Positions 8,358 to 39,919 of a DNA stretch of 64,000 bases are shown piece by piece; the first letter of the stretch is position 1; each line of letters starts with the position of its first letter. The position numbers were made by a program, and so were the translations under genes. The notes under the pieces were generated by a model. It did no database searches. It was not told the origin of the DNA and was given only the letters and a program-made list of their open reading frames with translations. The stretch is taken from contig NZ_CP045096.1 of the NCBI RefSeq assembly GCF_009184865.1, positions 4,402,001 to 4,466,000 on the forward strand. The letters are read 5' to 3'. Origin of the DNA: Streptomyces phaeolivaceus. Lineage in GTDB: Bacteria > Actinomycetota > Actinomycetes > Streptomycetales > Streptomycetaceae.

Positions 8358-8372
8358 CTGACGGCATGACAG
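8358..8372. promoter_or_regulatory. Degenerate regulon operator over the TetR start codon
   Basis: CTGACGGCATGACAG covers the start ATG (8366) of the TetR gene. The left half equals the half-site CTGACG of the repeated regulon palindrome; the right half matches four of six bases. If bound, it would let the regulator control its own gene. Weaker than the other nine sites. Confidence 0.4.
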
Positions 8373-9013
8373 GACAAGTGCGTACCGTCGACGGCCGCGT
8401 GGCCGGCCGACGAGGGCAGGCGACCCGGCAGAAGCTGCTCGACTGCCTCAGCGAGATGCTCAGCTCGTCGCCCTACCGGGACGTCAAAGTCATTGATGTC
8501 GCCCGGAAGGCGGGCACTTCACCCGCGACCTTCTACCAGTACTTCCCGGACGTCGAAGGCGCCGTCCTGGAGATCGCCGACCAAATGGCCGCCGAGGGCG
8601 CCACCTTGACGAGCCTCCTCGAAGGCCGCTCCTGGGTCGGCAAGGCCGGCTGGCAGACCGCCCAGGAACTCGTCGACGGTTTTCTGGAGTTCTGGCGCAA
8701 GAACGACGCGATCCTCCGCGTCGTCGACCTCGGCGCGGCCGAGGGCGACAAACGCTTCTACAAGATCCGTATGAAGATCCTGAACTCGGTCACCAACTCC
8801 CTCTCGGAGACGGTCGCCGAACTCCAGGCCAAGGGCCGCGTCGACAAGGACGTGAACCCGGGGGCCGTCGCCGGTTCCCTCGTCGCCATGCTCGCCTCGG
8901 TCTCCGGACACCAGAAGGGTTTCCAGACCTGGGGCGTCAAGCAGGCCGAACTGAAGCCCAATCTGGCCCTGTTGGTCCACCTGGGCATCACCGGCAAGAA
9001 ACCCACGAAGTAG
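8366..9013 (+). CDS. TetR-family transcriptional regulator
   Basis: A 215-residue one-component repressor-type protein. The helix-turn-helix lies near residues 15-65 (ATRQKLLDCLSEMLSSSPYR, then VIDVARKAGTSPATFYQYFPD). The C-terminal ligand domain is alpha-helical and not assignable to a ligand class. It is the first gene of the catabolic region and the best candidate to bind the CTGACGnnnCGTCAG palindromes upstream of the following units, since a 15-base palindrome with a 3-base centre suits a TetR dimer. CoA thioesters are common ligands for TetR regulators of such pathways; this is inference. Confidence 0.88.
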   Translation: MTGQVRTVDGRVAGRRGQATRQKLLDCLSEMLSSSPYRDVKVIDVARKAGTSPATFYQYFPDVEGAVLEIADQMAAEGATLTSLLEGRSWVGKAGWQTAQELVDGFLEFWRKNDAILRVVDLGAAEGDKRFYKIRMKILNSVTNSLSETVAELQAKGRVDKDVNPGAVAGSLVAMLASVSGHQKGFQTWGVKQAELKPNLALLVHLGITGKKPTK

Positions 9014-9162
9014 CGCAGGAGCCCCCGGGCACGCCCCGGACGCGATTCCTGTCACGCAGACGGCACCCTCGACCGAGGCGTGCCGCCTGCCGCGTTCAGG
9101 GACTGGGGGACTTGGGGACTCGGGGGAGGCGAACGGGCTCGGGGCCGCCCGCACCGCACACC

Positions 9163-9651
9163 TCACCGCCGTACGATCCGGAACACCCGTATCTCCCGGT
9201 CCACCCGGCCCTGGTACGTCGAGTACGGCGGCCAGAACCGCAGCAACTCCTTCCACGCGGCGGCCCGTTCCTCGCCCGCCAGCAGATGCGCGGTCACCGG
9301 GATGTCCTGGCCCTTCCAGTTGATCTCGGCGTCGGGGTGGGCCAGCAGGTTGGCGCTCCAGGCGGGGTGCCCGGGGCGGCCGAAGTTCGACCCGACGAGC
9401 ACCCAACTGCCCTGCCCCTCCTCGGGCATACAGGCCAGCGGCGTACGCCGGGGCACCCCGCTCCGCGCGCCGGTCGCCGTCAGGACCACCCCGGGCAGCA
9501 GTTGCGCGCTGAGCAGCACGCGCCCCCGGGTGACCCGGTGCACGGCCCGGTCCAGCGCGGGAATGACATGCGGCGCGACCCGCGCGAACGCCGGAGCCGA
9601 CGACACCTTCTGCACCAGCCGCACACCCATGCGCTTCAGTCGCTCAACCAT
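9163..9651 (-). CDS. Nitroreductase/deazaflavin-dependent family protein
   Basis: A 162-residue protein of the small split-barrel family that includes the mycobacterial F420-dependent Ddn. Signatures are VVLTATGARSGVPRRTPL and the C-terminal WKGQDIPVTAHLLAGEERAAAW. Members reduce quinones or nitro compounds with F420H2, or have unknown redox roles. Its start overlaps the end of the acyl-CoA dehydrogenase gene by eight bases, so it is co-translated with it and falls under the operator at 11014. Cofactor choice is inferred from family. Confidence 0.8.
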   Translation of the reverse strand: MVERLKRMGVRLVQKVSSAPAFARVAPHVIPALDRAVHRVTRGRVLLSAQLLPGVVLTATGARSGVPRRTPLACMPEEGQGSWVLVGSNFGRPGHPAWSANLLAHPDAEINWKGQDIPVTAHLLAGEERAAAWKELLRFWPPYSTYQGRVDREIRVFRIVRR

Positions 9652-10966
9652 CGCCGCGCTCCCCACGCACGTCCCGTCGTCCGTCGCTGAAGATCCCCGC
9701 CGCGTCGGCCGCGCGCCCCCGCAGCCGGTGCACCGGCCCGAAGAGCGCCTCGTCGGCCGCCGCCCGCTTGAAGTAGAGCTGTGCCTCGTGCTCCCAGGTG
9801 AACCCGATCCCGCCGTGCAGCTGGATCGCCTCCCCGGCGGCCACCCGCAGGGCCTCCAGCGCCTGAGCGAGCGCCAGCCCACCGACCCGCTCACCGACCC
9901 GCTCACCACCGTCGGCGCCGTCCCCGGTGTCCCCGGTGTCCCCGCCGGACGCGGGGGCGGCAGCCGCCCAGGCCGCGTAGTACGCCGCCGACCGCGCCGC
10001 CCGCACCCCCACGTACACATCCGCGAGCCGGTGCTTCACCGCCTGGAACGACCCGATGGGCCGCCCGAACTGCTCCCGCTGCCGCGCGTACGCGACCGTC
10101 CGCTCCAGCGCCCGGTCGGCGGCGCCCACGGCCTCGGCGGCGAGTACGGCGGCGGCCAGATCCCCGACACGGGCGAGGGCGCCCACCGGGCCCACCGGGT
10201 CGACCGAGCCCACCTGGCCCACCTGGCCCACCCCGCCCGCCTGACCCTCCTTGCCCAGCAACTCCCCTTCCACATCCCGTAGTTGCACTCGGCCCACCGG
10301 CCGCGTCTCGTCGATGGAGGTCTGCCGTGCCCGTACGAGCCCCCGGCCGGCGCCCGCGTCCGCCCGCACCAGGAACAGCAGTGTCCGCGAGCGGGCGTAC
10401 CCTCCGGCGTGCGCGGCGACCAGCAGCAGCCCCGCACTGTGCCCGTCGAGGACCTGCGCGGCCTCCCCGTAGAGCCGCCACCCGTCCCCGACGCGGCGCG
10501 CCTGTACGCCCCCGGCACGGCCGCCGCCGGCCCACGCGCCGCCGTTGTCGCCGGTCAGGGCCAGCGCGGTGGCGAGGGCGGGGCCCGGTACGGCGAGGGC
10601 CGCGGTGAGCCGGCCAGAGGCGAGACGGGGCAGCAGGTCGGCCCGCTGCCGTTCGGTGCCGAGGGCGAGGATCAGGGGGGCGACGAGGACGGCGCTGGAC
10701 AGCAGCGGGGAGGGGGCGAGGGCACGCCCCAACTCCTCTCCCGCCAGGGCGAGTTCGGTCACCGAGCAACCGACGCCGCCGTATGCCTCGGGCAGCGCGA
10801 GCCCCGGCAGTCCGAGCTGTTCGGAGAGGGCGGCCCACAGCCCGCCGTCGTATCCCTCCCCGGTCCGCACGGCGGCCCGGACGTCCTCCGGACCGCAGCG
10901 CTTGACGAGCAACTCCCTGACCGTGCGCCGAATTACCTCCTGCTCGGCGGTGAAGCGGGCATCCAT
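9644..10966 (-). CDS. Acyl-CoA dehydrogenase
   Basis: A 440-residue FAD-dependent acyl-CoA dehydrogenase. The N-terminal helical domain has LPEAYGGVGCS, and the C-terminal domain shows QREQFGRPIGSFQAVKHRLAD and the QLHGGIGFTWEHEAQLYFKRA signature. The enzyme forms the alpha,beta double bond of a CoA thioester. Two low-complexity inserts, a Gly/Val stretch and a GDTGDTGDGADGG stretch, come from microsatellite-like DNA at about 10190-10250 and 9890-9960. ATG 10966 has GGGGGA nearby. The operator at 11014-11028 lies about 50 bases upstream. Confidence 0.88.
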   Translation of the reverse strand: MDARFTAEQEVIRRTVRELLVKRCGPEDVRAAVRTGEGYDGGLWAALSEQLGLPGLALPEAYGGVGCSVTELALAGEELGRALAPSPLLSSAVLVAPLILALGTERQRADLLPRLASGRLTAALAVPGPALATALALTGDNGGAWAGGGRAGGVQARRVGDGWRLYGEAAQVLDGHSAGLLLVAAHAGGYARSRTLLFLVRADAGAGRGLVRARQTSIDETRPVGRVQLRDVEGELLGKEGQAGGVGQVGQVGSVDPVGPVGALARVGDLAAAVLAAEAVGAADRALERTVAYARQREQFGRPIGSFQAVKHRLADVYVGVRAARSAAYYAAWAAAAPASGGDTGDTGDGADGGERVGERVGGLALAQALEALRVAAGEAIQLHGGIGFTWEHEAQLYFKRAAADEALFGPVHRLRGRAADAAGIFSDGRRDVRGERGDG

Positions 10967-11013: not shown

Positions 11014-11028
11014 CTGACGGGTCGTCAT
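11014..11028. promoter_or_regulatory. Regulon operator CTGACGGGTCGTCAT
   Basis: Imperfect copy of CTGACGnnnCGTCAG (last base differs). It lies 48 bases upstream of the acyl-CoA dehydrogenase start at 10966 and controls the leftward dehydrogenase/deazaflavin-protein operon if the regulon model is right. Confidence 0.7.
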
Positions 11029-11061: not shown

Positions 11062-11147
11062 CCGACCGGATGACCGACAGGGCGACCGACAGGGCGACCG
11101 ACAGGGCGACCGACAGGGCGACCGAGTGGGCGACCAACAGGGTTACC
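11062..11147. repeat. 12-base tandem repeat ACCGACAGGGCG between two operators
   Basis: Four exact copies of ACCGACAGGGCG are flanked by degenerate copies, together about seven units. The array fills the divergent promoter region between the operators at 11014 and 11159, so its length sets the spacing between them. Confidence 0.85.
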
Positions 11148-11158
11148 GGCAGCACTAT

Positions 11159-11173
11159 CTGATGTACCGTCAG
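11159..11173. promoter_or_regulatory. Regulon operator CTGATGTACCGTCAG
   Basis: One mismatch in the left half-site, perfect right half-site. It ends 22 bases before the GTG start of the thiolase-like gene and would overlap its promoter. Confidence 0.75.
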
Positions 11174-11195
11174 ATTCATGACTGGAGGCCGGAAG

Positions 11196-12359
11196 GTGGC
11201 GATCGTCGGAGCCGCGCTCTCCGACTGCGGCCGGGTGGACGACACGACCCCGTACTCGACCCCGTACGCGCTGCACGCGCAGGCCGCCCGCCGGGCGCTC
11301 GCCGACGCGGGGCTGGAGCGGACGGCGATCGACGGGCTGGCCTCCGCCGGGCTGGGCACGCTGGCGCCGGTCGAGGTGGCGGAGTATCTGGGCCTGCGGC
11401 CCACCTGGGTCGACTCGACGTCCGTCGGGGGCGCGACCTGGGAGGTCATGGCGGCGCACGCGGCGGACGCGATCGCCGCCGGGCACGCGAACGTCGTCCT
11501 GCTCGTCTACGGCTCCACGGCCCGCGCGGACATCAAGGCGGGCCGCCGCACCGGCAACCTCTCCTTCGGGGCGCGCGGCCCCCTGCAGTACGAGGTCCCC
11601 TACGGGCACACCCTGATCGCCAAGTACGCGATGGCCGCGCGCCGCCATATGCACGAGTACGGCACGACCCTGGAGCAGCTGGCCTCCGTCGCCGTACAGG
11701 CCCGCGCGAACGCGGCGGCGAACCCGGAGGCGATGTTCCGCACCCCGATCACCGTCGACGACGTGCTCTCCTCCCCGCCCATCGCCGACCCGTTCACCAA
11801 GCTGCACTGCTGCATCCGCTCCGACGGGGGCGCGGCGGTGCTGCTGGCGGCGGAGGAGTACGTACGGGACTGCCGCCCGGCCGTCCCCGTCTGGATCCTC
11901 GGCACCGGCGAGTACACCTCCCACACGACCATGTCCGAGTGGCCCGACTTCACGGTCTCCCCTGCGGCGGTCAGCGGCCGGCTGGCCTTCGAGCGCGCGG
12001 GGGTCACCCCGGCCGAGATCGACTTCGCCGAGATCTACGACGCCTTCACGTACATGACCCTGGTGACCCTGGAGGACCTCGGCTTCTGCGCGAAGGGCGA
12101 GGGCGGGGCCTTCGTGGAGAAGAACCGCCTGACCCTCACCGGCGACCTCCCCGTCAACACCGACGGCGGCGGCCTCTCCGCCCAACACCCCGGCATGCGC
12201 GGCCTCTTCCTCCTCGTGGAAGCCGTACGCCAACTACGCGGCGAGGCCGGCCCCCACCAACTCCACACCCCCACCGGCCACCTCCCCCGCCTGGCCGTCG
12301 CCTCAGGCACGGGCGGCTGGTTCTGCTCCTCGGGAACAGTGGTACTGGGCCGGGCCTGA
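11196..12359 (+). CDS. Thiolase-superfamily lipid-transfer/aldolase protein (Ltp2-like)
   Basis: A 387-residue thiolase-fold protein of the SCP-x/Ltp2 type. It starts VAIVGAALSDCGR and carries IADPFTKLHCCIRSDGGAA, EIYDAFTYMTLVTLEDLGFC and NTDGGGLSAQHPGMRG, segments typical of Ltp proteins that cleave side-chain hydroxyacyl-CoAs by retro-aldol reaction together with a DUF35 partner. A DUF35 gene (16031-16504) is under the same type of operator. I chose GTG 11196, with GGAGG seven bases upstream, over ATG 11178, which has no ribosome site and lies only five bases past the operator. Substrate unknown. Confidence 0.82.
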   Translation: MAIVGAALSDCGRVDDTTPYSTPYALHAQAARRALADAGLERTAIDGLASAGLGTLAPVEVAEYLGLRPTWVDSTSVGGATWEVMAAHAADAIAAGHANVVLLVYGSTARADIKAGRRTGNLSFGARGPLQYEVPYGHTLIAKYAMAARRHMHEYGTTLEQLASVAVQARANAAANPEAMFRTPITVDDVLSSPPIADPFTKLHCCIRSDGGAAVLLAAEEYVRDCRPAVPVWILGTGEYTSHTTMSEWPDFTVSPAAVSGRLAFERAGVTPAEIDFAEIYDAFTYMTLVTLEDLGFCAKGEGGAFVEKNRLTLTGDLPVNTDGGGLSAQHPGMRGLFLLVEAVRQLRGEAGPHQLHTPTGHLPRLAVASGTGGWFCSSGTVVLGRA

Positions 12360-13000: not shown

Positions 13001-13741
13001 ATGATCGAGCGCCCCGCCCAGCCCCCGTCCCAGCCCCCGTCCCGGTCCTCTGCCCAGCCGTCCGAGCCCTCCTCCCAGCCGTCCGAGTTCGTCGAGGCCC
13101 TGCGCGGGCTGCGGGTCTGGGATCCGCGGGTCAGCGCGCTGCCGCTGTTCGACCCGGCGGCGGCCCCGGCCGAACCGGTGGCGCTGTTCGCCACCTGGTT
13201 CGGCGAGGTCGTGGCGGCCGGGGAGGTGGAGCCGCACACGATGTCGCTGGCCACGGCCGACGCGGAGGGCCGCCCGGACGTCCGTACGGTCATGCTGCAC
13301 GACGTGGACGCGCGCGGCTGGCACTTCGCCTCCCACTCCGGCAGCCGCAAGGGACGCCAGCTCGCGGCCCTCCCGTACGCGTCCCTCGGCTTCTACTGGC
13401 CCCTCCTCGGCCGCCAGGTCCGGGTACGCGGCCGGGTCACGGTCGAACCCGCCGAGGTCGCGCACGCCGACCTGCACACCCGCTCGACGGGAGCGCTGGC
13501 CGCCGCCCTCGTGGGACACCAGAGTGAAGTCCTCTCCTCCTACGAGGAGTTGGAGCGCGCTTCGGAGGCCGCCTGGGCACGGGCCGAGCGGGAGCCGGAT
13601 GTCGCCGTACCGTCCTGGACGGCGTACGTCGTGGAGCCGGACGAGGTGGAGTTCTTCCAGGGGGACGCGCGGCGACGGCATGTGCGGCTCGACTACCGGC
13701 GGGAGGACGGCCGTTGGGCCACGGAGCTGCTGTGGCCCTGA
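13001..13741 (+). CDS. Pyridoxamine 5'-phosphate oxidase-like FMN protein
   Basis: A 246-residue protein of the PNPOx family: PHTMSLATADAEGRPDVRTVMLHDVDARGWHFASHSGSRKGRQLA matches the FMN-binding N-terminal half, and QGDARRRHVRLDYRREDGRWATELLWP the C-terminal dimerisation part. The first 30 residues are a Pro/Ser/Gln repeat. No good ribosome site precedes ATG 13001, so a later start is possible. It may act on PNP/PMP or, like phenazine PhzG proteins, on another aromatic. The convergent DUF3500 relic runs into its 3' end. Confidence 0.75.
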   Translation: MIERPAQPPSQPPSRSSAQPSEPSSQPSEFVEALRGLRVWDPRVSALPLFDPAAAPAEPVALFATWFGEVVAAGEVEPHTMSLATADAEGRPDVRTVMLHDVDARGWHFASHSGSRKGRQLAALPYASLGFYWPLLGRQVRVRGRVTVEPAEVAHADLHTRSTGALAAALVGHQSEVLSSYEELERASEAAWARAEREPDVAVPSWTAYVVEPDEVEFFQGDARRRHVRLDYRREDGRWATELLWP

Positions 13742-16006: not shown

Positions 16007-16196
16007 GCCCCCATTGAAACGCGCACCCCCTCACGAACGCGCGCGAAATACGGGCACCACGAAGTCACCGCCGTCCCGGAAGACCACTTCAAGCCCCATC
16101 CCGACCCACAACTCCCCACGCCCACCTCCACCCCCGCCTTCGCCCTCGCCCTCGCCTTCACCGCCCGCTGGACCTTCACCGATCTCGGCATCCACC
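15595..16196. repeat. Inverted 59-base duplication joining GNAT and DUF35 genes
   Basis: The plus strand at 15595-15653 and the minus strand at 16196-16138 align over 59 bases with about nine mismatches; 22 bases are identical (15609-15630 against 16182-16161). The copy falls in the Gly/Glu-rich insert of the DUF35 gene, read antisense to its acetyltransferase frame. By-eye alignment. Confidence 0.75.
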
Positions 16197-16504
16197 ACCT
16201 CGGTCATCATCCGCGGCCCCTCGACGAGATCGACGACGGCGGCGACGTACGGCGTCCGCTCCCCGAAGGGCGGCAGGTCGTTGCGGTGGACGACGGACCA
16301 GGTGTAGAGCGTGGCGTGCCCGGAGGCCTCCTCCCAGCGCACGTCCTCGCTCCAGCAGTACGGACAGAACTCCCGCGGATAGTGGTGGGCCCGACCGCAG
16401 CCCGCGGCCCCGCAGCGCCGCACCAGCAACCGCCCCTCGGCGGCGGCCTCCCAGTACGTACGGCTGAGCCCGTCGACCTCCGGCAGGTCGAACCGCGCGC
16501 CCAT
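16031..16504 (-). CDS. DUF35 zinc-ribbon/OB-fold protein, Ltp partner
   Basis: A 157-residue DUF35 protein with the zinc ribbon CGAAGCGRAHHYPREFCPYC (four cysteines) and the OB-fold segment PPFGERTPYVAAVVDLVEGPRMMTEVVD. Such proteins bind acyl-CoA next to Ltp2/thiolase-fold aldolases in steroid side-chain degradation; the likely partner is the protein at 11196-12359. The start overlaps the DoxX stop (TGATG). Residues about 103-128 are a Gly/Glu-rich insert absent from usual family members. Part of it comes from DNA at 16138-16196 that is about 85 percent identical, in inverted orientation, to 15595-15653 in the acetyltransferase gene. Confidence 0.82.
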   Translation of the reverse strand: MGARFDLPEVDGLSRTYWEAAAEGRLLVRRCGAAGCGRAHHYPREFCPYCWSEDVRWEEASGHATLYTWSVVHRNDLPPFGERTPYVAAVVDLVEGPRMMTEVVDAEIGEGPAGGEGEGEGEGGGGGGRGELWVGMGLEVVFRDGGDFVVPVFRARS

Positions 16505-16959
16505 CAGAACAGCCCCAGCGCGCTGTCGACGGACCAGGTCTGCCAGGACATCCCGAACAGCGCGACCACCGAGATCAGCGCCATCATCGAGTTCTGCCCC
16601 TGCTCGGCCCAGTCGTGGATCATCAGGACGAGATAGAGCAGGTTGAGGACCAGGCCGCCCACGAGCGCGATCGGTGTCAGCACGCCGAGTATCAGGCCCA
16701 GCCCGAGGGCGAGTTCGGCGTACACGACGACATGGGCCATGACCTTCGGCCGGGGCCGGACGACGACGTCGAACCCGCTCCGCACCGCTGCCCACCGGTG
16801 CTTCTCCGCCACCCCCGCCGCCCAGGCGATCCCGGCCCCCTCCCGGAACCAGGCCTTCTTGTCCTTGTGCCGCCAACTCTCCAGCCACCACACCCCGAGC
16901 CCGATCCGCAGAACGGCCAGCCATTCGGCACCACCGAGCCAGACCGTGTCCATGGACAT
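16504..16959 (-). CDS. DoxX-family membrane protein
   Basis: A 151-residue membrane protein with about four hydrophobic segments, including AELALGLGLILGVLTPIALVGGLVLNLLYLVLMIHDW near residues 80-120, and an N-terminal ESWRHKDKKAWF segment. DoxX proteins are small membrane components often linked to redox or thiosulfate/quinone metabolism. ATG 16959 is chosen because GGAAGGG lies six bases before it. It is first in a coupled pair with DUF35, behind the operator at 17004. Confidence 0.75.
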   Translation of the reverse strand: MSMDTVWLGGAEWLAVLRIGLGVWWLESWRHKDKKAWFREGAGIAWAAGVAEKHRWAAVRSGFDVVVRPRPKVMAHVVVYAELALGLGLILGVLTPIALVGGLVLNLLYLVLMIHDWAEQGQNSMMALISVVALFGMSWQTWSVDSALGLF

Positions 16960-17003
16960 CGCCACCCTTCCGCGTCCACACGGGGTATCCGGGTACTGGG
17001 CAT

Positions 17004-17018
17004 CTGACGGAACGTCAG
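17004..17018. promoter_or_regulatory. Regulon operator CTGACGGAACGTCAG
   Basis: Perfect half-sites around GAA, 45 bases upstream of the DoxX start. It lies in the 100-base gap between the end of the NACHT gene and DoxX. Confidence 0.8.
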
Positions 17019-20997: not shown

Positions 20998-22239
20998 GTG
21001 AATACGCTCGGGCACATGGCCGACTCCAGAGCATCCGCGGGATCCACCACCCCTGCCCCCTCCGACCACCCCGTCTACGTGATCGGCGGCGGCCCCGGCG
21101 GGCTGGCCGTCGCGTACGCGTTGCGGGCCCAGGGGGTACGGGCCGTGGTGCTGGAGAAGGCGGACGGGGTCGGGGCGTCCTGGCGGCGGCACTACGACCG
21201 GCTGCACCTGCACACGACCCGGCGGCTGTCGGGCCTGCCCGGTCTGCCCATGCCGCGCCGCTTCGGCCGGTGGGTGTCGCGGGACAACGTGGTGCGCTAT
21301 CTGGAGAAGTACGCCGAGGTGCACGAGCTGGAGATCGTGACCGGCGTCGAGGTCTCCCGGGTCGAGCGCGGCGCCGACGGCACCGGCTGGCTGCTGCGCG
21401 CCACCGGCGGCCGTGAGCTGACCGGCAGCGCGGTCGTCGTCGCCACCGGCTACAACCACACGCCCCACATCCCCGACTGGCCCGGCCGGGACTCCTACAC
21501 CGGCGGTCTCGTGCACGCCTCCGAGTACCGCAACCCCGAGCCCTACGCCGGCCGTGACGTCCTCGTCGTCGGCATCGGCAACACCGGCGCCGAGATAGCC
21601 GTCGACCTCGTCGAGGGCGGCGCCCGGCGCGTCCGGCTCGCGGTGCGGACGGCCCCGCACATCGTGCGCCGGTCGACCGCCGGTTGGGCCGCCCAGTACA
21701 CGGGCGTCCTCGTACGACGGCTGCCCGTCGCCGTCGTGGACCGGCTCGCCAGACCGATGGCGAAGCTCAGCGTGCCGGACCTGTCCGAGCACGGCCTGTC
21801 CCGCCCCGACACCGGCCTCTACTCCCGGGTGAACGAGGGCTCCATCCCCGTGCAGGACGTCGGCCTCATCGACGCCGTACGGAAGGGGAAGGTCGAGATC
21901 GTCGGCCCGGTCGAGGGCTTCCAGGACGGCAAGGTCGCCCTCGGCGACGGCGGCCGGATCGAGACGGACGCCGTGATCGCCGCCACCGGCTACCGGCGCG
22001 CCCTGGAGGGGCTCGTCGGCCATCTCGACGTCCTCGACGGACGCGGCAAGCCGGTCGTGCACGGCGCCCGCTCCCCCCAGAACGCCCCGGGCCTCTACTT
22101 CACCGGCTTCACCAACCCCATCAGCGGCATGTTCCGTGAACTCGCCCTGGACGCCGAGAAGATCGCCAAGGCCGTCGCGAGAACGGGCGGCGTCGCCACC
22201 CGCGACGCGGTCACCGTCCGCATCCGCACCACCCCCTGA
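20998..22239 (+). CDS. FMO-like NAD(P)/FAD-dependent monooxygenase
   Basis: A flavoprotein of about 413 residues with two dinucleotide-binding motifs: YVIGGGPGGLA near residue 30 for FAD and VVGIGNTGAE near residue 190 for NADPH. Between them YTGGLVHASEY resembles the FMO/Baeyer-Villiger fingerprint. VIAATGYRRALE and TGFTNPISGMFRE lie in the C-terminal part. It probably oxidises a pathway substrate or acts as a related oxidoreductase. The start is unsure: GTG 20998 has GAGGG too close, ATG 21016 lacks a clear site. No regulon operator precedes it directly, but it lies inside the catabolic block. Confidence 0.8.
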   Translation: MNTLGHMADSRASAGSTTPAPSDHPVYVIGGGPGGLAVAYALRAQGVRAVVLEKADGVGASWRRHYDRLHLHTTRRLSGLPGLPMPRRFGRWVSRDNVVRYLEKYAEVHELEIVTGVEVSRVERGADGTGWLLRATGGRELTGSAVVVATGYNHTPHIPDWPGRDSYTGGLVHASEYRNPEPYAGRDVLVVGIGNTGAEIAVDLVEGGARRVRLAVRTAPHIVRRSTAGWAAQYTGVLVRRLPVAVVDRLARPMAKLSVPDLSEHGLSRPDTGLYSRVNEGSIPVQDVGLIDAVRKGKVEIVGPVEGFQDGKVALGDGGRIETDAVIAATGYRRALEGLVGHLDVLDGRGKPVVHGARSPQNAPGLYFTGFTNPISGMFRELALDAEKIAKAVARTGGVATRDAVTVRIRTTP

Positions 22240-22374: not shown

Positions 22375-22389
22375 CTGACACAGCGTCAG
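22375..22389. promoter_or_regulatory. Regulon operator CTGACACAGCGTCAG
   Basis: One mismatch in the left half-site. First of two sites in front of the acyl-CoA synthetase gene; its centre lies 31 bases, about three helix turns, from the next site, so both would sit on the same DNA face. Confidence 0.75.
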
Positions 22390-22405: not shown

Positions 22406-22420
22406 CTGACGTGTCGTCAG
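22406..22420. promoter_or_regulatory. Regulon operator CTGACGTGTCGTCAG
   Basis: Perfect half-sites around TGT, 68 bases upstream of the acyl-CoA synthetase start at 22488. It pairs with the site at 22375. Confidence 0.8.
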
Positions 22421-25842: not shown

Positions 25843-26565
25843 ATGGGCGGTGTGATGGGACACGCGGGAATGGCAGCCGCCGCCGTCCGCTACCTGAGAG
25901 CGGACCCGGCCCGCGGGAGCCGTAGGACGACGAACACACCACCAATCCTCGACGCCCTGCCCCGCCCCGAGCTGCGCTGCGTCGGCGAGAACGAACGCGC
26001 CCCGGTCGAGCAGGCCGAATTCCGCCGCGTCCTGGGCAACTTCGCGACCGGCGTCACGGTGATCACCGCCCCGGCACCACCCCCGCTGGCCGACGGCCGT
26101 ACCACCGACCACCCCGCCGACCACCCCGCCGACCACCCCGCCGGCTTCGCCTGCCAGTCCTTCTCCGCGCTCTCCCTCGACCCGCCCCTCGTCGTCTTCA
26201 TGGTCGGCCGTACGTCGACGACCTGGCCCCGTATCGCGCGCGCGGGCGTCTTCTGTGTGAACGTACTCGGCGCGGACCAGGGCGAGTTGTGCCGTCGCTT
26301 CGCGGCGAGCGGCACGGACAAGTTCGCCGGTGTCACCCACACCCCCGCCCCCACCACCGGCTCCCCCCGCCTCACCGGCACCACCGCCTGGATCGACTGC
26401 ACGATCCACGCCGTCCACACGGGCGGCGACCACCTGATCGTGGTGGGCCGGGTGGAGTCCCTGGGCACGGGCGACGAGGACGGGACCGGGGCCGGGGCCG
26501 GGGCCGGGGAGGGCGCGCCGCTGCTGTTCCACCGGGGCCGGTTCGGCGGGTTCACGACCGGCTGA
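25843..26565 (+). CDS. Flavin reductase family protein
   Basis: A 240-residue FMN-binding split-barrel protein: FRRVLGNFATGVTVITA, FACQSFSALSLDPPLVVFMVGRTSTTWPRIARAGVFCVNVL and a C-terminal PLLFHRGRFGGF are family landmarks (HpaC/TftC type). It would supply reduced flavin to a two-component monooxygenase. Two in-frame repeats, DHPADHPADHPAG and GAGAGAGEG, are inserted. Start could be ATG 25843, GTG 25852 or ATG 25855; none has a strong ribosome site, and with the operator just upstream a leaderless or short-leader mRNA is possible. A start-less hydrolase frame follows its stop in the same frame. Confidence 0.83.
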   Translation: MGGVMGHAGMAAAAVRYLRADPARGSRRTTNTPPILDALPRPELRCVGENERAPVEQAEFRRVLGNFATGVTVITAPAPPPLADGRTTDHPADHPADHPAGFACQSFSALSLDPPLVVFMVGRTSTTWPRIARAGVFCVNVLGADQGELCRRFAASGTDKFAGVTHTPAPTTGSPRLTGTTAWIDCTIHAVHTGGDHLIVVGRVESLGTGDEDGTGAGAGAGEGAPLLFHRGRFGGFTTG

Positions 26566-30492: not shown

Positions 30493-31542
30493 TCAGAACG
30501 TGAGCACCGCCCGCGCCACCCGCCCCTCCCCCGCGTCCTCGGCCGCCTTCGTGAAGTCCTCGATCGGATAGGTGGCGGTGACCAGTTCGTCCAGTAACAG
30601 TCGCCCCTCACGGTAGAGGTCGGCGTACAGCGCGATGTCCCGCTGTGGCCGGGCCGAGCCGTAGCGGCAGCCCAGGATGGACTTGTCCAGGTAGAGGGAG
30701 GAGACGAGGAAGGACGCCTCGGCGGTGGCGGCCGGGACGCCGAGCAGGATCGCCTGCCCGTGCCGGTCGAGGAGGTCGATCGCCTGGCGGATGAGTTCGA
30801 CCCGGCCGACGCACTCGAACGCGTGGTCCGCGCCGGTGGGCAGGATGTCCCGCACCCCGGCCACGGAGGTGAGGAAGTGCGTGGCACCGAACCGCCGTGC
30901 CACCCCCTCCTTCTCCGGATTGGCGTCCACGGCGACGATCCGCGTCGCCCCCGCGATCCGCGCCCCCTGCACCACATTGAGCCCGATCCCCCCGGCCCCG
31001 ATCACGACGACGCTCTCCCCCCGGTCGACACGCGCCCGGTTGAGCACCGCCCCCACCCCGGTCAGCACCCCGCACCCGATCAGCGCGGCGGAGGTCAGCG
31101 GGATGTCGTCCGGTATCCGTACCGCCTGCACGGCCTTGACCACCGTCCGCTCCGCGAAGGCGGAGTTCGCGGCGAACTGGAACACCTCCCGCCCGCCCCG
31201 CGTGAACGGCCGGGTGGGCCGCCCGACGGCCCGCCGGCACATGGTCGGCCGGCCCCGGTCGCAGTCGGCGCAGGCCCCGCAGTTGGCGAGGGTGGACAGG
31301 GCGACATGGTCCCCGGGGCGGACGTGCCGGACCCCCGCGCCCACCTCCTCGACGACCCCCGCGCCCTCGTGCCCGAGCACCACGGGGACCGGGAAGGGGA
31401 TGGTCCCGTCCACCACCGACAGATCGCTGTGGCAGAGCCCGGCGGCCGAGACCGCCACCAGCACCTCACCGGGGCCCGGCCGCCGTACGTCCAGGTCGTC
31501 GACGACCTCGGCCCGTTTCCCGTCGAACACCACTCCGCGCAT
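30493..31542 (-). CDS. Zinc-dependent alcohol dehydrogenase (class III-like)
   Basis: A 349-residue MDR dehydrogenase. Catalytic zinc ligands appear in GLCHSDL and GHEGAG, structural zinc cysteines in CGACADCDRGRPTMC, and the NAD-binding site in VVVIGAGGIGLNVVQGARIAGA, with Asp in VAVDANPEK favouring NAD. It probably oxidises a hydroxyl formed during degradation, or an aldehyde released by the aldolase. It is the last gene of the leftward SDR-dehydrogenase-alcohol dehydrogenase operon, 20 bases after the acyl-CoA dehydrogenase gene. Confidence 0.87.
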   Translation of the reverse strand: MRGVVFDGKRAEVVDDLDVRRPGPGEVLVAVSAAGLCHSDLSVVDGTIPFPVPVVLGHEGAGVVEEVGAGVRHVRPGDHVALSTLANCGACADCDRGRPTMCRRAVGRPTRPFTRGGREVFQFAANSAFAERTVVKAVQAVRIPDDIPLTSAALIGCGVLTGVGAVLNRARVDRGESVVVIGAGGIGLNVVQGARIAGATRIVAVDANPEKEGVARRFGATHFLTSVAGVRDILPTGADHAFECVGRVELIRQAIDLLDRHGQAILLGVPAATAEASFLVSSLYLDKSILGCRYGSARPQRDIALYADLYREGRLLLDELVTATYPIEDFTKAAEDAGEGRVARAVLTF

Positions 31543-31562: not shown

Positions 31563-32717
31563 TCAGCCTCTCGGCTCCCTCGGCAGACCGAGCACCCGCT
31601 CGGCGATGATCGTGCGCTGCACCTCGTCCGAACCGCCGTAGATCGTGTCGGCCCGACTGAACAGAAACAGGTACTGGAACGGATCGAGCACGTACGACTC
31701 CGCCGACCACTCCCGGGGCCCGACCGCCGCCCCCGCGCCCCGCGCCTCCATCGCCAGCTCCCCGAGCCGCCGGTGCCACCGTCCCCACAGCAACTTGGCC
31801 ACGCTCGGCGCGCCCGGCTCCGCGCCCCCTGCCGCCCCGCCGAGCGTCCGCAGGGCGTTCCACCGCATGACCTTCAGCTCCGCCCACTGCCGTACGAGCC
31901 GGTCCCGTACGACGAGGTCGTCCACGGCCCCGCTGTCCACGGCGGCCCGTACGACATCCCCCAACTCCGCCTCGAACCCGATCTGTTGCGCGAGGGTCGA
32001 CACCCCGCGCTCGAAGCCGAGCAGCCCCATGGCCACCCGCCAGCCGTTGCCGTCGCCCCCGACGACATGCTCCGCGCGGGCGTGCGCCCCGTCGAAGAAC
32101 ACCTCGTTGAACTCGCTGGTCCCGGTCAGCTGCCGGATCGGCCGCACCTCGATCCGCCCCGGCTGGTCCATCGGCACGAGCAGCAACGACAGTCCGTGGT
32201 GGCGGGCGGACCCGGCCTCGGTACGGGCCAGCACGAAGCACCAGTCGGCCTCATGGGCGAGCGAGGTCCAGATCTTCTGCCCGGTGATCCGGTACGACGC
32301 CCCGTCCTCCGCCCGTTCCGCCCTGGTCCGTACGCCGGCGAGGTCCGACCCGGCACCGGGTTCGCTGTATCCCTGGCACCACAGTTCGTCGCCGCGCGCG
32401 ATGGCCGGCAGGAACCGCCGCTTCTGCTCCTCGCTCCCGAACGCGATCAGCGTCGGCGCGAGCAGCTTCTCGCCGATGTGGCCCGACCGGGCGGGTACGT
32501 CGGCCCGTGCGTACTCCTCCGCCCATACGACCTGCTGGGTGAGCGTGGCCGTCCGGTTGCCGTACCCGTCCTCCTCCCACCCGAGCCCGATCCACCCGGC
32601 GGCGCCGAGCGTCCGCTCCCACGCGCGCCGCTCCGCGCGCGCCCCGGCGTGCGCCCCCAGCCAGGCCCTGACCTCCGCCCGGAACGCCTCGTCCTCTTCC
32701 CCGAACCCGAAGTCCAT
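31563..32717 (-). CDS. Acyl-CoA dehydrogenase
   Basis: A 384-residue acyl-CoA dehydrogenase: GYGNRTATLTQQVVWAEEYAR, WCQGYSEPGAGSDLAGVRTRAER (FAD/substrate segment), ITGQKIWTSLAHEADW and the C-terminal YGGSDEVQRTIIAERVLGLPREP. This is the larger-chain type seen with steroid and other polycyclic substrates. TTGGAGG precedes ATG 32717 by four bases. It follows the SDR gene after a gap of about 190 bases filled by a form A repeat pair, and lies 20 bases before the alcohol dehydrogenase. Confidence 0.88.
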   Translation of the reverse strand: MDFGFGEEDEAFRAEVRAWLGAHAGARAERRAWERTLGAAGWIGLGWEEDGYGNRTATLTQQVVWAEEYARADVPARSGHIGEKLLAPTLIAFGSEEQKRRFLPAIARGDELWCQGYSEPGAGSDLAGVRTRAERAEDGASYRITGQKIWTSLAHEADWCFVLARTEAGSARHHGLSLLLVPMDQPGRIEVRPIRQLTGTSEFNEVFFDGAHARAEHVVGGDGNGWRVAMGLLGFERGVSTLAQQIGFEAELGDVVRAAVDSGAVDDLVVRDRLVRQWAELKVMRWNALRTLGGAAGGAEPGAPSVAKLLWGRWHRRLGELAMEARGAGAAVGPREWSAESYVLDPFQYLFLFSRADTIYGGSDEVQRTIIAERVLGLPREPRG

Positions 32718-32909: not shown

Positions 32910-33821
32910 TCACGCGTTAGGCCGCTCCCCCGCCGCCGCAGCCCGAGCCATCCCCTCCACCCGCTCCAGCATCGGCATCGGATCCACCCCCACAGAACCC
33001 GGCAGCACCTCCGCGATCCTCTCCGGCGTCCACCCCTCCTCCGCGTAGGCCGAGCGCAGCTCACCCGGCTGGGCCCACACCGCGATCTTCGGCCCGGCCA
33101 CCGTGTACACCTGCCCCGTGATCCGCTCCTCCCGAGCCCGGTCGGACAGCAGATACACCACGAACGCGGCTACATCCTCCGGTTCACCGATCTCGGTCAG
33201 CTCCATCGGCACCCCGGCGGACATCCGCGTACGCGCGACCGGCGCCACCGCGTTCGCGGTCACCCCGTACCGGTGCAGTCCGAGCGCCGCGCTCCGCACG
33301 AGCGAGATGATCCCGCCCTTGGCCGCGCTGTAGTTGGCCTGGGAGACGGACCCCTGGTGGTTGCCGCTGGTGAACCCGATCAACGTCCCGGCCCGCTGCT
33401 GCCGCATGACGGCGGACGCGGCCCGGAACACCGTGAACGTGCCCTTGAGATGGGTGGCGATCACCGGATCCCACTCCTCCTCGGCCATGTTGAACAGCAT
33501 CCGCTCCCGCAGGATCCCGGCGACGCACACGACCCCGTCGATCCGCCCGTACGTCTGGACCGCCGTGTCCACGACCCGCTGTCCCCCGGCCATCGTGGAG
33601 ACGTCGTCGGCGACGGCGACCGCCTCGCCCCCGGCCGCCTCGATCTCCTTGACGACGGTGTCGGCGACGGAACTGGTGGGATCCGAGCCGTCGACGGAGA
33701 CGCCGTAGTCGTTGACGACGACCCGCGCGCCCTCGGCGGCGGCGCCGACGGCGACCGCCCGGCCGATCCCCCGCCCCGCGCCCGTGACGGCGACGACCTT
33801 GCCTGCCAAGAAGTTCCCCAC
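32910..33821 (-). CDS. Short-chain dehydrogenase, multifunctional-enzyme-2-like
   Basis: A 303-residue SDR with the NAD motif VTGAGRGIGRA, VCVAGILRERMLFNM, the active-site serine region GFTSGNHQGSVSQ and YSAAKGG. Its long C-terminus (EELRSAYAEEGW... region) is typical of hydroxyacyl-CoA dehydrogenases of the peroxisomal MFE-2/HSD17B4 type. It would oxidise the 3-hydroxyacyl-CoA after hydration. GTG 33821 has AAGGGG upstream. First gene of its operon, 41 bases after the operator at 33862. Confidence 0.87.
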   Translation of the reverse strand: MGNFLAGKVVAVTGAGRGIGRAVAVGAAAEGARVVVNDYGVSVDGSDPTSSVADTVVKEIEAAGGEAVAVADDVSTMAGGQRVVDTAVQTYGRIDGVVCVAGILRERMLFNMAEEEWDPVIATHLKGTFTVFRAASAVMRQQRAGTLIGFTSGNHQGSVSQANYSAAKGGIISLVRSAALGLHRYGVTANAVAPVARTRMSAGVPMELTEIGEPEDVAAFVVYLLSDRAREERITGQVYTVAGPKIAVWAQPGELRSAYAEEGWTPERIAEVLPGSVGVDPMPMLERVEGMARAAAAGERPNA

Positions 33822-33861: not shown

Positions 33862-33876
33862 CTGACGGACCGTTAG
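33862..33876. promoter_or_regulatory. Regulon operator CTGACGGACCGTTAG
   Basis: One mismatch in the right half-site. It lies in the divergent gap between the SDR operon (leftward) and the cyclase gene (rightward) and could control both. Confidence 0.78.
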
Positions 33877-33938: not shown

Positions 33939-34880
33939 ATGTCATCGCCCACGGAGTTCGCCGCGTTCACCGAGATCGCCAAGCGCGTGAACAACTGGGG
34001 CCGTTGGGGGCCGGACGACGAGATCGGCACCCTCAACCTGATCACCGACGAGGTCGTACGGGAGGCCGCCGCCTCGGTCCGTTCCGGGCGCCGTGTGCCG
34101 CTGGCGCTGCCCCTGCAACAGGACGGTGTGCAGACGGGGATGATGCCGGGCCGGGTGAACCCGCTGCACGCGATGGTGCAGATCAACCAGGAGATCTTCG
34201 GTCCGGGCACGGTGGCGTGCAGCGACGACGCGGTGACCATGGGGCTCCAGTCGGCGACCCACTGGGACGCGCTCACCCATGTCTCGCACTCGGGCCGGAT
34301 CTACAACGGCCGCCCGGCGGACACCATCACCCCGCACGGCGGCGCGGCCTTCGCCGGTATCGACAAGGCCCGGCACATCGTCTCGCGCGGGGTGCTCCTG
34401 GACATCCCGCGCGCCCTGGGCCTGGCCGACGACCGGCTGCCCGGCAGCCATGCCGTCACCCCCGAAGACCTGGACGCGGCCGAGGAGTTGGCGGGCACCC
34501 GGGTCCGGGCGGGCGACATCGTCCTGGTCCGCACCGGGCAGATCCGGGCGTACCTGGCCGGGGACAAGCACGCGTACGCGTTCCCGTCGCCGGGGCTTTC
34601 GCTGCGTACGCCGGAGTGGTTCCACGCGCGGGATGTCGCGGCGGTCGCCAATGACACCCTGACGTTCGAGATCTTCCCGCCGGAGGTCGAGGATCTGTGG
34701 CTGCCGGTGCACGCGCTCGATCTGGTCGAGATGGGGATGCCGCAGGGGCAGAACTGGAATCTCGAAGAGTTGTCCACAGCCTGTGGACAAGCTGGGCGGT
34801 ACGACTTCCTGCTCTCGGCGATGCCCGAGCCGTTCGTCGGCGCGACGGGCACGCCGGTGGCGCCGATCGCCGTCCTGTAG
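33939..34880 (+). CDS. Cyclase family protein (kynurenine formamidase-like hydrolase)
   Basis: A 313-residue metal-dependent hydrolase of the cyclase/KynB fold: NNWGRWGPDDEIGTLNLIT at the start, the metal-site region SATHWDALTHVSHSGRIYNG (HxDxxxH), RAGDIVLVRTGQ and the C-terminal EMGMPQGQNWNLEEL. This large actinobacterial subgroup often sits in catabolic clusters and may open a lactone, amide or ring. GGGGAGGG lies four bases before ATG 33939. Expressed divergently from the SDR operon. Confidence 0.85.
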   Translation: MSSPTEFAAFTEIAKRVNNWGRWGPDDEIGTLNLITDEVVREAAASVRSGRRVPLALPLQQDGVQTGMMPGRVNPLHAMVQINQEIFGPGTVACSDDAVTMGLQSATHWDALTHVSHSGRIYNGRPADTITPHGGAAFAGIDKARHIVSRGVLLDIPRALGLADDRLPGSHAVTPEDLDAAEELAGTRVRAGDIVLVRTGQIRAYLAGDKHAYAFPSPGLSLRTPEWFHARDVAAVANDTLTFEIFPPEVEDLWLPVHALDLVEMGMPQGQNWNLEELSTACGQAGRYDFLLSAMPEPFVGATGTPVAPIAVL

Positions 34881-37456: not shown

Positions 37457-38587
37457 TCACCCCTTCGGCAACCCCAGAATCCGCTCCCCCACAATGTTCC
37501 GCTGAATCTCCGACGTCCCCGCAGCGATCGTGTACGACAACGAACTCAGCCGGTCGAGAACCCACGGCCGCCCCAGATCGAGCGCCCCCACCCCCAACAC
37601 CTCCGCGGCCACCTCGTACAACTCCTGCCGCACCCGCGAATACCGCAGCTTGAAAACCGACCCGCCCACCCCCGGCACCCCTCCGGACGCCTCCCCCTCA
37701 CTCACATTCCACTGCGTGAGCCGCCACAGCGCCCGGAACTCCGCGTTCAGCCGCCCGAGCCGCCGCCGCACACCGGAGTCGTCCCAGCGCCCGTTCGCCC
37801 GTGCCTCCCGCGCGATCTCCGCCAACACCCGCCGACAGGCGACCACTTCACCCACGAACGCGGTCCCCCGCTCGAACGACAGCGTCACCATCGTCACGCG
37901 CCACCCGTCGTTCTCGTCCCCCACCCGGTTGGCGACCGGCACCCGCACCTCGTCGAGGAAGACCTCGGCGAACTCCGTGGAGCCGGCGAGCGTCCGCAGC
38001 GGCCGTACGGTCACGCCGGGCGCGTCCATCGGCATCGCCAGCCAGGAGATGCCCCGATGCTTCGGCGCGTCCCCGTCCGTGCGCACCAACAGCTCGCACC
38101 AGTCGGCGACTTCGGCGTGCGAGGTCCAGATCTTGGACCCGCTCACCACGTACTCGTCACCGTCCCGGCGCGCGCGGGTGCGCAGCGACGCGAGGTCGGA
38201 GCCGGCGTCCGGCTCGCTGAACCCCTGGCACCAGACCTCCTCGCCGCGCAGGATCGGCGGCAGCCAGCGGGCCCGCTGCCCGGCCGTCCCCTCGGCGGCG
38301 ATGGTGGGCCCGGCGTGCAGCAGCCCGACGAACCCGGCGCCCACGTACGGGGCGCCCGCCTTCTCCGTCTCCTCCAGGAAGATCAGCCGCGTGGTCGGCG
38401 AGGCGTCCCAGTGGACGTCGGCGTACCCGGCGTCGTACAGCGTCCGCTGCCAGCCGAGGTCGTACGCGCGCCGCCCCGGCCAGTCGTCCGGGGACGGCTT
38501 GGGCGGCAGCGCGGGCAGCGCCTTCGCCAGCCACTCCCGCAGCCGCGCCCGGAACTCCTCCTCCTGCGGGCTGTACGCCAACTCCAT
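37457..38587 (-). CDS. Acyl-CoA dehydrogenase
   Basis: A 376-residue acyl-CoA dehydrogenase with WCQGFSEPDAGSDLASLRTRARR, VSGSKIWTSHAEVADWCELLVRT and the C-terminal IAAGTSEIQRNIVGERILGLPKG. It lies between the amidohydrolase (11 bases upstream) and the short dehydrogenase subunit (about 130 bases downstream), all read leftward from the operator at 39816. ATG 38587 starts the family-like part. Probable partner of the short subunit. Confidence 0.87.
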   Translation of the reverse strand: MELAYSPQEEEFRARLREWLAKALPALPPKPSPDDWPGRRAYDLGWQRTLYDAGYADVHWDASPTTRLIFLEETEKAGAPYVGAGFVGLLHAGPTIAAEGTAGQRARWLPPILRGEEVWCQGFSEPDAGSDLASLRTRARRDGDEYVVSGSKIWTSHAEVADWCELLVRTDGDAPKHRGISWLAMPMDAPGVTVRPLRTLAGSTEFAEVFLDEVRVPVANRVGDENDGWRVTMVTLSFERGTAFVGEVVACRRVLAEIAREARANGRWDDSGVRRRLGRLNAEFRALWRLTQWNVSEGEASGGVPGVGGSVFKLRYSRVRQELYEVAAEVLGVGALDLGRPWVLDRLSSLSYTIAAGTSEIQRNIVGERILGLPKG

Positions 38588-38598
38588 CGCCCGGGGCC

Positions 38599-39792
38599 CT
38601 ACTTGTCGAAGTCCAGGTCGAGCATGCGGATCGCGTTGCCGCGCATCAGCTTGTAGACCGTCTCGTCGTCGAGGCCCTTCACATGGTCGAGGGCGACCTC
38701 CTCGGTGTGCGGGAAGGTCGAGTCGACATGCGGATAGTCGGTCTCGAAGGTCGCGTTGTCCCGCCCCACGACGTCCAGCGAGGCGACGCCGTGCTTGTCG
38801 CGGAAGAAGCAGCAGAACATCTGCCGGTAGTAGTACGTCGACGGCGGCTCGGGGATCAGGTCCCGTACGCCGCCCCACGCCCGGTGCTCCTCCCAGACGT
38901 CGTCGGCGCGTTCCAGGGCGTACGGGATCCAGCCCATCTGCCCCTCGCTGTAGGCGAGTTTGAGGGTCGGGAACTTCACCAGGACGCCGCTGAAGAGGAA
39001 GTCCATCATCGAGGCCATCGCGTTGTTGAAGGAGAGCGAGGCCTGTACGGCGGGCGGCGCGTCCGGGGAGGCGGCGGGCATCTGGGAGCTGGAGCCGATG
39101 TGCATGTTGACGACCGTGCCGGTCTCCTGGCAGACCGCGAAGAAGGGGTCCCAGTAGCCGGAGTGGATGGAGGGCAGGCCGAGGTAGGTGGGGATCTCGG
39201 AGAAGGTGACGGCCCGTACGCCCCGGGCGGCGTTCCGCCGGATCTCCTCCACCGCGAGGTCGATGTCCCACAGCGGGATCAGACAGAGCGGGATCAGCCG
39301 GCCGCCGCTGTCGCCGCACCACTCCTCGACCATCCAGTCGTTGTAGGCGCGTACGCAGGCCAGGGCGACCTCCTTGTCGTGCGCCTCGGCGAAGGTCTGT
39401 CCGCAGAAGCGCGGGAAGGTCGGGAAGCAGAGCGAGGCCTCGACGTGGTTGAGGTCCATGTCCGCGAGCCGTGCCTTCGGGTCCCAGCAGCCGCGCCGCA
39501 TCTGCTCGCGGGTGATGCCCTCCAGCGTCATCTCGTCCCGGTCGAAGCCGACGGCCGCGATGTTCCGCTTGTACGGGAACTTCAGGTCCTCGTAGATCCA
39601 CCAGTCCGTCTGCTGCCCGTCCGGGTCCATCGTGATCTGGTACTTCCCGGCGACGTACGCCAGCTCGCCGATCCCGGCGGTGAGGGGCTTCGGGCCCCGG
39701 TCGCGGTACTTCTCCGGCAGCCAGGTGTCGAAGAGGTGCGCGGGCTCGATCACATGGTCGTCGACGCTGATGATGCGGGGCAGTTCGGTCAT
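38599..39792 (-). CDS. Amidohydrolase 2 family protein (ACMSD-like TIM barrel)
   Basis: A 397-residue metal-dependent hydrolase/decarboxylase-fold protein. It starts MTELPRIISVDDHVIEPAHLF, a form in which the usual HxH is replaced by DDH, and continues with FPTFPRFCGQTF, VNMHIGSSSQMP, KLAYSEGQMGWIPYALERAD and the C-terminal FETDYPHVDSTFPH. This group is frequent next to acyl-CoA dehydrogenases and cytochromes P450 in mycobacteria; reactions are mostly unknown. GGTGGAGGGGA precedes ATG 39792; the frame to 39834 overlaps the operator and is not used. First gene of a three-gene operon. Confidence 0.85.
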   Translation of the reverse strand: MTELPRIISVDDHVIEPAHLFDTWLPEKYRDRGPKPLTAGIGELAYVAGKYQITMDPDGQQTDWWIYEDLKFPYKRNIAAVGFDRDEMTLEGITREQMRRGCWDPKARLADMDLNHVEASLCFPTFPRFCGQTFAEAHDKEVALACVRAYNDWMVEEWCGDSGGRLIPLCLIPLWDIDLAVEEIRRNAARGVRAVTFSEIPTYLGLPSIHSGYWDPFFAVCQETGTVVNMHIGSSSQMPAASPDAPPAVQASLSFNNAMASMMDFLFSGVLVKFPTLKLAYSEGQMGWIPYALERADDVWEEHRAWGGVRDLIPEPPSTYYYRQMFCCFFRDKHGVASLDVVGRDNATFETDYPHVDSTFPHTEEVALDHVKGLDDETVYKLMRGNAIRMLDLDFDK

Positions 39793-39815
39793 GGGTCCCC
39801 TCCACCGAGCCGGAT

Positions 39816-39830
39816 CTGACGGACCGTCAG
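39816..39830. promoter_or_regulatory. Regulon operator CTGACGGACCGTCAG
   Basis: Perfect palindrome identical to the site at 25823, 24 bases before the amidohydrolase start. The site at 39905 serves the divergent CoA ligase gene. Confidence 0.82.
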
Positions 39831-39904
39831 ACATCTACTCCCCAGCAGGCTAGTGGCGCACCCCTGGACCGACAAGGCGCCCGGCCCTACGCTCTGCCCA
39901 CGAT

Positions 39905-39919
39905 CTGACACCTCGTCAG
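39905..39919. promoter_or_regulatory. Regulon operator CTGACACCTCGTCAG
   Basis: One mismatch in the left half-site, 26 bases before the CoA ligase start at GTG 39945. Confidence 0.76.

Follow-up and report, generated by a model that had tools for sequence, protein, structure and literature searches.

The palindrome TCTGACGnnnCGTCAGA recurs before catabolic genes in a 64,000-nucleotide stretch of DNA from Streptomyces phaeolivaceus (contig NZ_CP045096.1, positions 4,402,001 to 4,466,000), which is called the window below and whose numbering is used unless genome positions are indicated. Judged from sequence comparisons, the palindrome serves with a probability of about 85% as operator for the TetR-type product of the gene at 8366-9013, a protein that would be a KstR-like repressor of dispersed catabolic operons. 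What is observed are the sites with their conservation and placement at promoters, their co-occurrence with the TetR gene and the operator sequences in the promoter of that gene. As far as the open-access literature shows the regulon is new; no description of it was found there.

The preliminary description of this DNA proposed nine sites with at most one mismatch to a 15-base palindrome. All nine were found, four as exact copies and five with a single mismatch, and they are given below together with the putative regulator and the copy at its start codon. When the window was shuffled 100 times the mean number of sites with at most one mismatch was 0.56 and the largest number three, so that none of the 100 shuffles reached nine and a chance origin of the nine sites is ruled out. 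With up to two mismatches there are 13 matches in the window against 7.9 expected, and the signal is thus found only in the close matches. Gene starts are from a simple in-house caller and not from an annotation.

8358-8372: degenerate operator, proposed to serve autoregulation, over the -10 (TAAGCT) and start codon of the TetR gene; conserved context TAAGCTGACGGC-ATGACAG
8366-9013, plus strand: TetR-type regulator, proposed repressor; N-terminal TetR_N helix-turn-helix (Pfam PF00440, 26.6 bits, cut-off 24) and TetR_C_38 (PF19352, 241.7 bits, cut-off 23.9)
11014-11028: operator 48 bp before the acyl-CoA dehydrogenase gene (10966, minus strand); overlaps the -10-like TAATAT (11032-11027, minus strand)
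11159-11173: operator ending 4 bp before the thiolase ATG at 11178; contains the -10-like TACCGT (11165-11170), 7 nt before the ATG
17004-17018: operator, exact 15-mer, 39 bp before the DoxX-like gene (16965, minus strand)
22375-22389: operator, upstream member of a pair before the ADP-forming acyl-CoA synthetase gene
22406-22420: operator, downstream member of the pair, exact
25823-25837: operator, exact, before the flavin reductase-like gene
33862-33876: operator between the divergent genes for a short-chain dehydrogenase (SDR; 33821, minus strand) and a cyclase (33939, plus strand)
39816-39830: operator, exact, also as the 17-mer, 24 bp before the amidohydrolase gene (39792, minus strand)
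39905-39919: operator 26 bp before the AMP-dependent ligase gene (39945, plus strand)

The stretch 11072-11143, between the divergent operators at 11014 and 11159, holds a 12-base unit, GACCGACAGGGC, in four exact and two variant copies. Relatives have different spacers at this place, sometimes repetitive ones.

The 15-base palindrome is real, but the useful consensus is longer. Read in the direction of the gene they face, the sites give the oriented consensus ATCTGACGnnnCGTCAGAT, with about 28 bits over 21 positions, an upper figure since the sequences are related. These statistics come from 84 distinct sites facing one gene (85 before a duplicate was removed), and leave out a further 139 that face two genes and 7 that face no gene. 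The aligned sites have the form GAC-N5-GTC, with G, A and C at positions 4-6 in 100, 100, and 89% of the 84. In a 204-kb region and 80 named TetR loci, 224 of 231 sites are located -15 to 200 bp before the start of a facing gene, as compared to 17% of 4050 random positions. The 80 loci (1.43 Mb) contain 96 sites at one mismatch and 216 at two, while the reversed-pattern control gives 0. Of the 84 oriented sites, 25 have a TANNNT hexamer whose last base is motif position 3, against 2 in the mirrored orientation, and a second class, with TACCGT inside the motif as at 11165-11170, counts 23 against 3. Both of these -10-like classes seem to be dominated by orthologs of a few promoters. The overlap with the -10 places the operator where a repressor competing with RNA polymerase would be expected to bind.

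The genes that the sites precede in the window are as follows.

9644-10966, minus strand: acyl-CoA dehydrogenase (Pfam PF00441, PF02771), target of 11014
11178-12359, plus strand: thiolase-like protein of the SCP-x/lipid-transfer type (PF22691; NCBIfam thiolase subfamilies below their cut-offs), target of 11159
16504-16965, minus strand: DoxX-like small membrane protein (named by eye, no Pfam match), first gene after 17004
16031-16504, minus strand: ChsH2-type zinc-ribbon/OB-fold protein (PF01796, PF12172), same operon as the DoxX-like gene
22488-24794, plus strand: ADP-forming acyl-CoA synthetase (PF13549, PF13607, PF13380), target of the 22375/22406 pair
24850-25734, plus strand: enoyl-CoA hydratase/isomerase (PF00378), probably in the same operon as the 22488 gene
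25870-26565, plus strand: flavin reductase-like protein (PF01613), target of 25823; start uncertain, 25843 or 25870
32910-33821, minus strand: SDR, target of 33862, followed by acyl-CoA dehydrogenase (31563-32717) and alcohol dehydrogenase (30493-31542) genes
33939-34880, plus strand: putative cyclase (PF04199), divergent target of 33862
38599-39792, minus strand: amidohydrolase (PF04909), target of 39816, followed by an acyl-CoA dehydrogenase gene (37457-38587)
39945-41456, plus strand: AMP-dependent acyl-CoA ligase (named from the sequence by eye), target of 39905

The targets had been described as being of CoA type; this is correct for the set overall, but not for the lead genes of 17004 and 25823. 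Upstream of the window the sites precede genes encoding an SDR, a 287-amino-acid protein without a Pfam match, LLM-type oxidoreductases, an SDR, an amidohydrolase, and an AMP ligase, as well as a thiolase followed by a ChsH2-type OB-fold protein and an enoyl-CoA hydratase. The site at genome position 4393025 lies inside the called start of the amidohydrolase gene, whose true start is probably further in. The gene set suggests degradation of ring compounds or branched acids via CoA thioesters, with a side-chain step of the ChsH2/thiolase type.

The conservation of the sites was followed in the TetR loci of named Streptomyces records, 67 in number, counting as a site any match with at most two mismatches from -200 to +20; counts across related genomes are not independent. 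With shared promoters entered twice, six target genes have 223 ortholog promoters, and a site was found in 207 of these. The acyl-CoA dehydrogenase (45/47) and the thiolase (49/51) share a promoter, as do the AMP ligase and thiolase-2 (39/41 each), while the DoxX-like gene has a site in 20/20 and the ADP-forming ligase in 15/23. Six interspersed non-target genes had no site in any of 189 promoters (0/60, 0/38, 0/53, 0/14, 0/9, and 0/15), and a further interspersed gene had none in 2; examples of interspersed genes are those at 7031-7933 and 13001-13741. The proposal of a regulon is thus borne out by sites that are kept before the targets and absent before these six neighbours. Across 150 Streptomyces genomes the number of sites also tracks a target gene: the median is 17 in the 104 genomes with the amidohydrolase and 2.5 in the 46 without it. 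Fewer than 7 sites are found in 5 of the 104 and in 35 of the 46, and the remaining 11 without the gene still have 7-21. A homolog 62.5% identical to the amidohydrolase is encoded 28 bp behind a site in a genome of the family f6 (G183).

In the 10.18-Mb genome the bare 15-mer has 152 matches with at most one mismatch, compared to 23 for the reversed pattern, and 8 of its 16 exact matches lie off the cluster described below, several of them before unrelated genes. Scattered matches of that kind were named in advance as an argument against a regulon, and they are partly seen for the bare 15-mer, which was rejected as a definition of the regulon; the flanking T and A are needed. With one flanking base on each side, that is, with the 17-mer TCTGACGnnnCGTCAGA, such matches are far fewer. 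At most one mismatch then gives 21 genome sites against 1 for the reversed-pattern control, and 13 of the 21 are found between genome positions 4354254 and 4441831 in an 88-kb patchwork cluster. This cluster begins 48 kb before the window, with sites at 4354254, 4384622, 4384684, 4385510, 4390546, 4393025, and 4399132 (window -47746 to -2868), and the nine window sites form its downstream part. The block originally outlined as the regulon therefore contains real sites but is too short. Three of the eight off-cluster sites have plausible partners, as 421197 precedes a nitronate monooxygenase/acyl-CoA ligase operon, 4926106 precedes a MaoC/OB-fold operon, and 1300069 lies between isochorismatase and PPOX genes; the other five (84146, 2519390, 3713172, 4014390, and 6777794) are without a clear catabolic partner. 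An exact TCTGAC-N5-GTCAGA is also present at 410727, between enoyl-CoA-hydratase-like and acyl-CoA-ligase-like genes (named by eye). The cluster further encodes a 981-amino-acid BTAD/NB-ARC/TPR regulator (G000:C2:4393407-4396352; L029:11407-14352), homologs of which stay near the TetR gene in several site-poor species.

The protein encoded at 8366 has the all-helical TetR fold, and the TetR_C_38 match recurs in all eight scanned homologs from other loci. It was thought to be the only TetR protein of the block, and no other was found in the 88 kb when 150 of 343 candidates were scored, a search that was not exhaustive. Its distribution was compared with that of the sites in a class sample of 296 genomes, using a cut-off of E 1e-30 for the TetR. 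After 31 Streptomyces and 5 f15 genomes had been set aside 260 were left, and at least three sites were found in 15 of the 17 TetR-positive and 5 of the 243 TetR-negative genomes (Fisher p 2e-18, without correction for relatedness). The f15 genomes were dropped from the test before counting; their inclusion would have helped the association. A control TetR (G000:4467160) showed no link to the sites, with at least three in 4 of 49 positive and 16 of 211 other genomes.

The association is also seen within families. In f16 the site counts are 16, 20, 15, 18, and 11 with the TetR and 0, 0, and 1 without it; in f18 nine genomes with the TetR have 3-9 sites and 20 without it have 0-2, except G282 with five. 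G282 belongs to g57 and lacks the TetR at E 1e-30, unlike seven other sampled g57 genomes; an assembly gap is possible (93% complete). Common site sequences suggest that f18 is akin to Pseudofrankia and Parafrankia. The TetR-bearing f3 genomes G014-G020 have 7, 8, 3, 9, 9, 8, and 0 exact copies of TCTGAC-N5-GTCAGA (reversed control 0), clustered around the TetR gene in five of them, and in G014 the TetR gene lies among site-bearing catabolic genes without its Streptomyces neighbours. Taken with the operators described next, the co-occurrence across families agrees with the earlier assignment of the TetR as the regulator, and the protein is very probably the repressor of the regulon.

A degenerate copy had been noted over the TetR start codon, and it is indeed present at 8358-8372 with two mismatches to the 15-mer. 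As in a KstR-like regulon, putative operators are found in the regulator's own promoter in other lineages as well: 12 of 14 loci of Frankia-type, Frankiales, and f14 have one with at most two mismatches and 2 of 14 with three. In all seven Frankia-type loci a TACGCT hexamer and a GTG start follow immediately after it. In loci from Frankiales metagenome-assembled genomes it precedes the -10 (L118) or directly follows a leaderless start (L120, L122, L123, and L153), the -10 and leaderless assignments being read from the sequence alone. Actinomadura, Yinghuangia, f3, and Streptomyces have a TAAnCTGAC-N5-GnCAG-like sequence across the -10 and start, with different codons after the ATG. The operator thus shifts relative to the start codon and is still kept, which is hard to explain by coding. 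That the copy at the start codon is merely the -10 of a leaderless gene is ruled out, as the operator of other lineages is found before or after the start.

Several observations weigh against this TetR as the regulator, or against a strict match of sites and targets. The Streptomyces copy at the own promoter is degenerate, with four mismatches to the 17-mer, and lies partly in codons; the copies of L131 (Frankiales) and L121 (f14) need three mismatches, and no operator could be seen by eye at the TetR start in L125 (f21), L124 (f6), and L200. G020 of f3 carries the TetR (56% identity) and 0 exact N5 sites, and sites are few in f14 (2), f21 (1), and the f6 genome G183 (3). Two genes used as controls have sites in some orthologs, namely the flavin-containing monooxygenase gene at 20998 (4/20) and, within the target operon that the DoxX-like gene leads, the gene for the OB-fold protein (6/28). 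Within Streptomyces, finally, 149 of the 150 genomes gave a match to the TetR, whether they have 0 or 32 sites, and only G147, an assembly in 1010 contigs, did not; the presence of the TetR is thus not predictive of sites. Of these genomes, 38 have 0-4 sites, 10 have 5-9, and 102 at least ten. The helix-turn-helix is nearly unchanged in the aligned site-poor species. The proposed pairing of TetR and sites therefore stands across families, but not within Streptomyces, where the TetR is present also when sites are few.

The retention of the TetR without sites means that it has kept another role, or that the sites were lost recently. In most site-poor species examined (3-20 kb around the TetR gene) the catabolic genes are missing while other neighbours stay; in G044 they are kept with weaker sites. 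In 3 of 16 site-poor loci (G128, G129, and G045) one base is inserted between the two arms of the copy at the start codon. In 7 of the 16 the first matched gene next to the TetR gene encodes a homolog of the flavin-containing monooxygenase of 20998-22239, and this enzyme is a candidate for the remaining role of the TetR. In L079 (G129:C5:52001-71702) the TetR neighbourhood is part of an inverted duplication, with two head-to-head copies giving the same match values, which is either an assembly artefact or a recent duplication.

These points leave some room, though not much, for the explanation that a regulator encoded elsewhere binds the palindrome and that the TetR is a conserved neighbour with a job of its own. 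Its retention in nearly all Streptomyces (149 of 150), also where a genome has 0-4 sites, and its weak own-promoter copy in this genus would fit such an arrangement; the genome has 100 TetR_N matches, and LuxR-type, BTAD-NB-ARC, and AraC-type regulators are encoded in the region. It would not explain why TetR and sites occur together outside the genus when a control TetR does not, why the operator is present at the promoter of this particular TetR in Frankia-type and Frankiales loci and more weakly in Actinomadura and f3, or why the gene lies inside the catabolic cluster of G014 without its Streptomyces neighbours. Since Streptomyces retain the TetR also without sites, it might seem to have nothing to do with them; this view is overturned by the cross-family co-occurrence and the own-promoter operators.

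It is very improbable that the TetR is mainly an activator or that the motif is a promoter element of a sigma factor. Some TetR proteins do activate, and the sites are found at the promoters of many genes; however, the motif is a dyad in which both arms carry information, a symmetry unlike that of sigma-factor promoters, and the share of sites over -10-like hexamers and start codons corresponds to the place of a repressor.

The f15 genomes G169, G187, G201, G213, and G225 also count against the proposal, since they each contain 51-177 copies of the 17-mer with up to one mismatch (the reversed control has 0) that mostly are not before genes and that the model leaves unexplained. Of 21 sampled sites only 6 lie before the start of a gene, by which a giant regulon is ruled out; the f15 palindrome looks like a dispersed signal of another kind. 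The copies are spread over the chromosome in G169 (e.g., G169:C1, L136-L150), three are near DUF222/HNH-like proteins (by eye), and the f15 TetR homolog is only 37-51% identical to that of the window. An origin by chance, by clustering due to base composition, or as a mobile repeat, to which the 152 matches of the bare 15-mer and the dispersed f15 palindrome might point, can practically be dismissed given the shuffles, the 0/189 non-target promoters, and the flanks of the window sites, which differ between targets.

Several known TetR-type regulators can be compared with the proposed repressor. Many KstR targets are found in one large cluster. The KstR2 operator has a CAAG-N2-CTTG core, unlike the operator here, and the operators and targets of the acyl-CoA-sensing TetR proteins of the DesT, FadR, and FasR types also differ from those here. 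EthR, a TetR repressor of M. tuberculosis that is 20% identical to the window TetR, controls one neighbouring monooxygenase gene and no large catabolic regulon. The KstR and KstR2 names are not among the 50 fold matches listed, and no KstR-labelled chain was found among 36 solved sequences at E 1e-3, which is not a direct test of orthology.

KstR (Rv3574/MSMEG_6042) is the TetR regulator of mycobacterial cholesterol catabolism, and 16 further instances of its motif were described in M. tuberculosis and 31 in M. smegmatis, with 74 and 83 genes (PMC1995591). The logic is the same here, with a TetR-type repressor and one palindrome before many catabolic genes, those of lipid catabolism in the case of KstR (PMC1995591). 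Here too the operator stands before many CoA-type catabolic genes, partly over the -10. Many KstR sites are likewise located between divergent genes, and the copy at its own promoter is partly over the -10, with autoregulation (PMC1995591). The two operators differ, as had been suggested, the present one being TCTGACGnnnCGTCAGA (GAC-N5-GTC) and that of KstR TnnAACnnGTTnnA (AAC-N2-GTT; PMC1995591), a form that the 84 aligned sites do not have. Unlike KstR, the regulator here has a TetR_C_38 domain, a different target set and substrate, and another host range (Streptomyces, Catenulispora-like, Actinomadura, and the Frankia group), and it persists in Streptomyces that have few sites. KstR2 (Rv3557c), also a TetR, regulates cholesterol metabolism (PMC3388012). 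Two S. coelicolor proteins are set aside as orthologs by what their sources state, SCO1712 by its 205 amino acids (PMC3603650) and SCO1718 by the adjoining ABC transporter genes (PMC11272600); no S. coelicolor locus tag turned up for the TetR.

From these data we infer binding by the TetR, repression rather than activation, and the nature of ligand and substrate. In the absence of ligand a TetR dimer would sit on ATCTGACGnnnCGTCAGAT, over the -10 in several targets, and block transcription of operons encoding acyl-CoA ligases, acyl-CoA dehydrogenases, thiolases, hydratases, ChsH2-type proteins, F420/flavin oxidoreductases, and amidohydrolases. A pathway intermediate, most likely an acyl-CoA of the substrate, would release it, and through the operator at its start codon the TetR would repress itself. 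The substrate is perhaps a cyclic or branched carboxylic acid, with a degradation resembling that of a steroid side chain.

A bolder and distinctly tentative idea is that of a second KstR, a master repressor found in practically every Streptomyces and also in Catenulispora-like, Actinomadura, and Frankia-group bacteria, which might control one coherent, unrecognised pathway that degrades a cyclic compound common in the environment. Roughly one in four Streptomyces species (38 of 150 sampled, with 0-4 sites) might then have shed most of the pathway and kept the repressor, its DNA-binding domain unchanged, for a further task such as control of the adjacent flavin monooxygenase. With this finding a large uncharacterised block of catabolic genes, in those antibiotic producers that have been studied most, gains an operator, a list of targets, and a probable regulator, and a direct search for the food molecule of these genes becomes possible. 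It also presents a case of a repressor that is retained where most of its regulon is gone.

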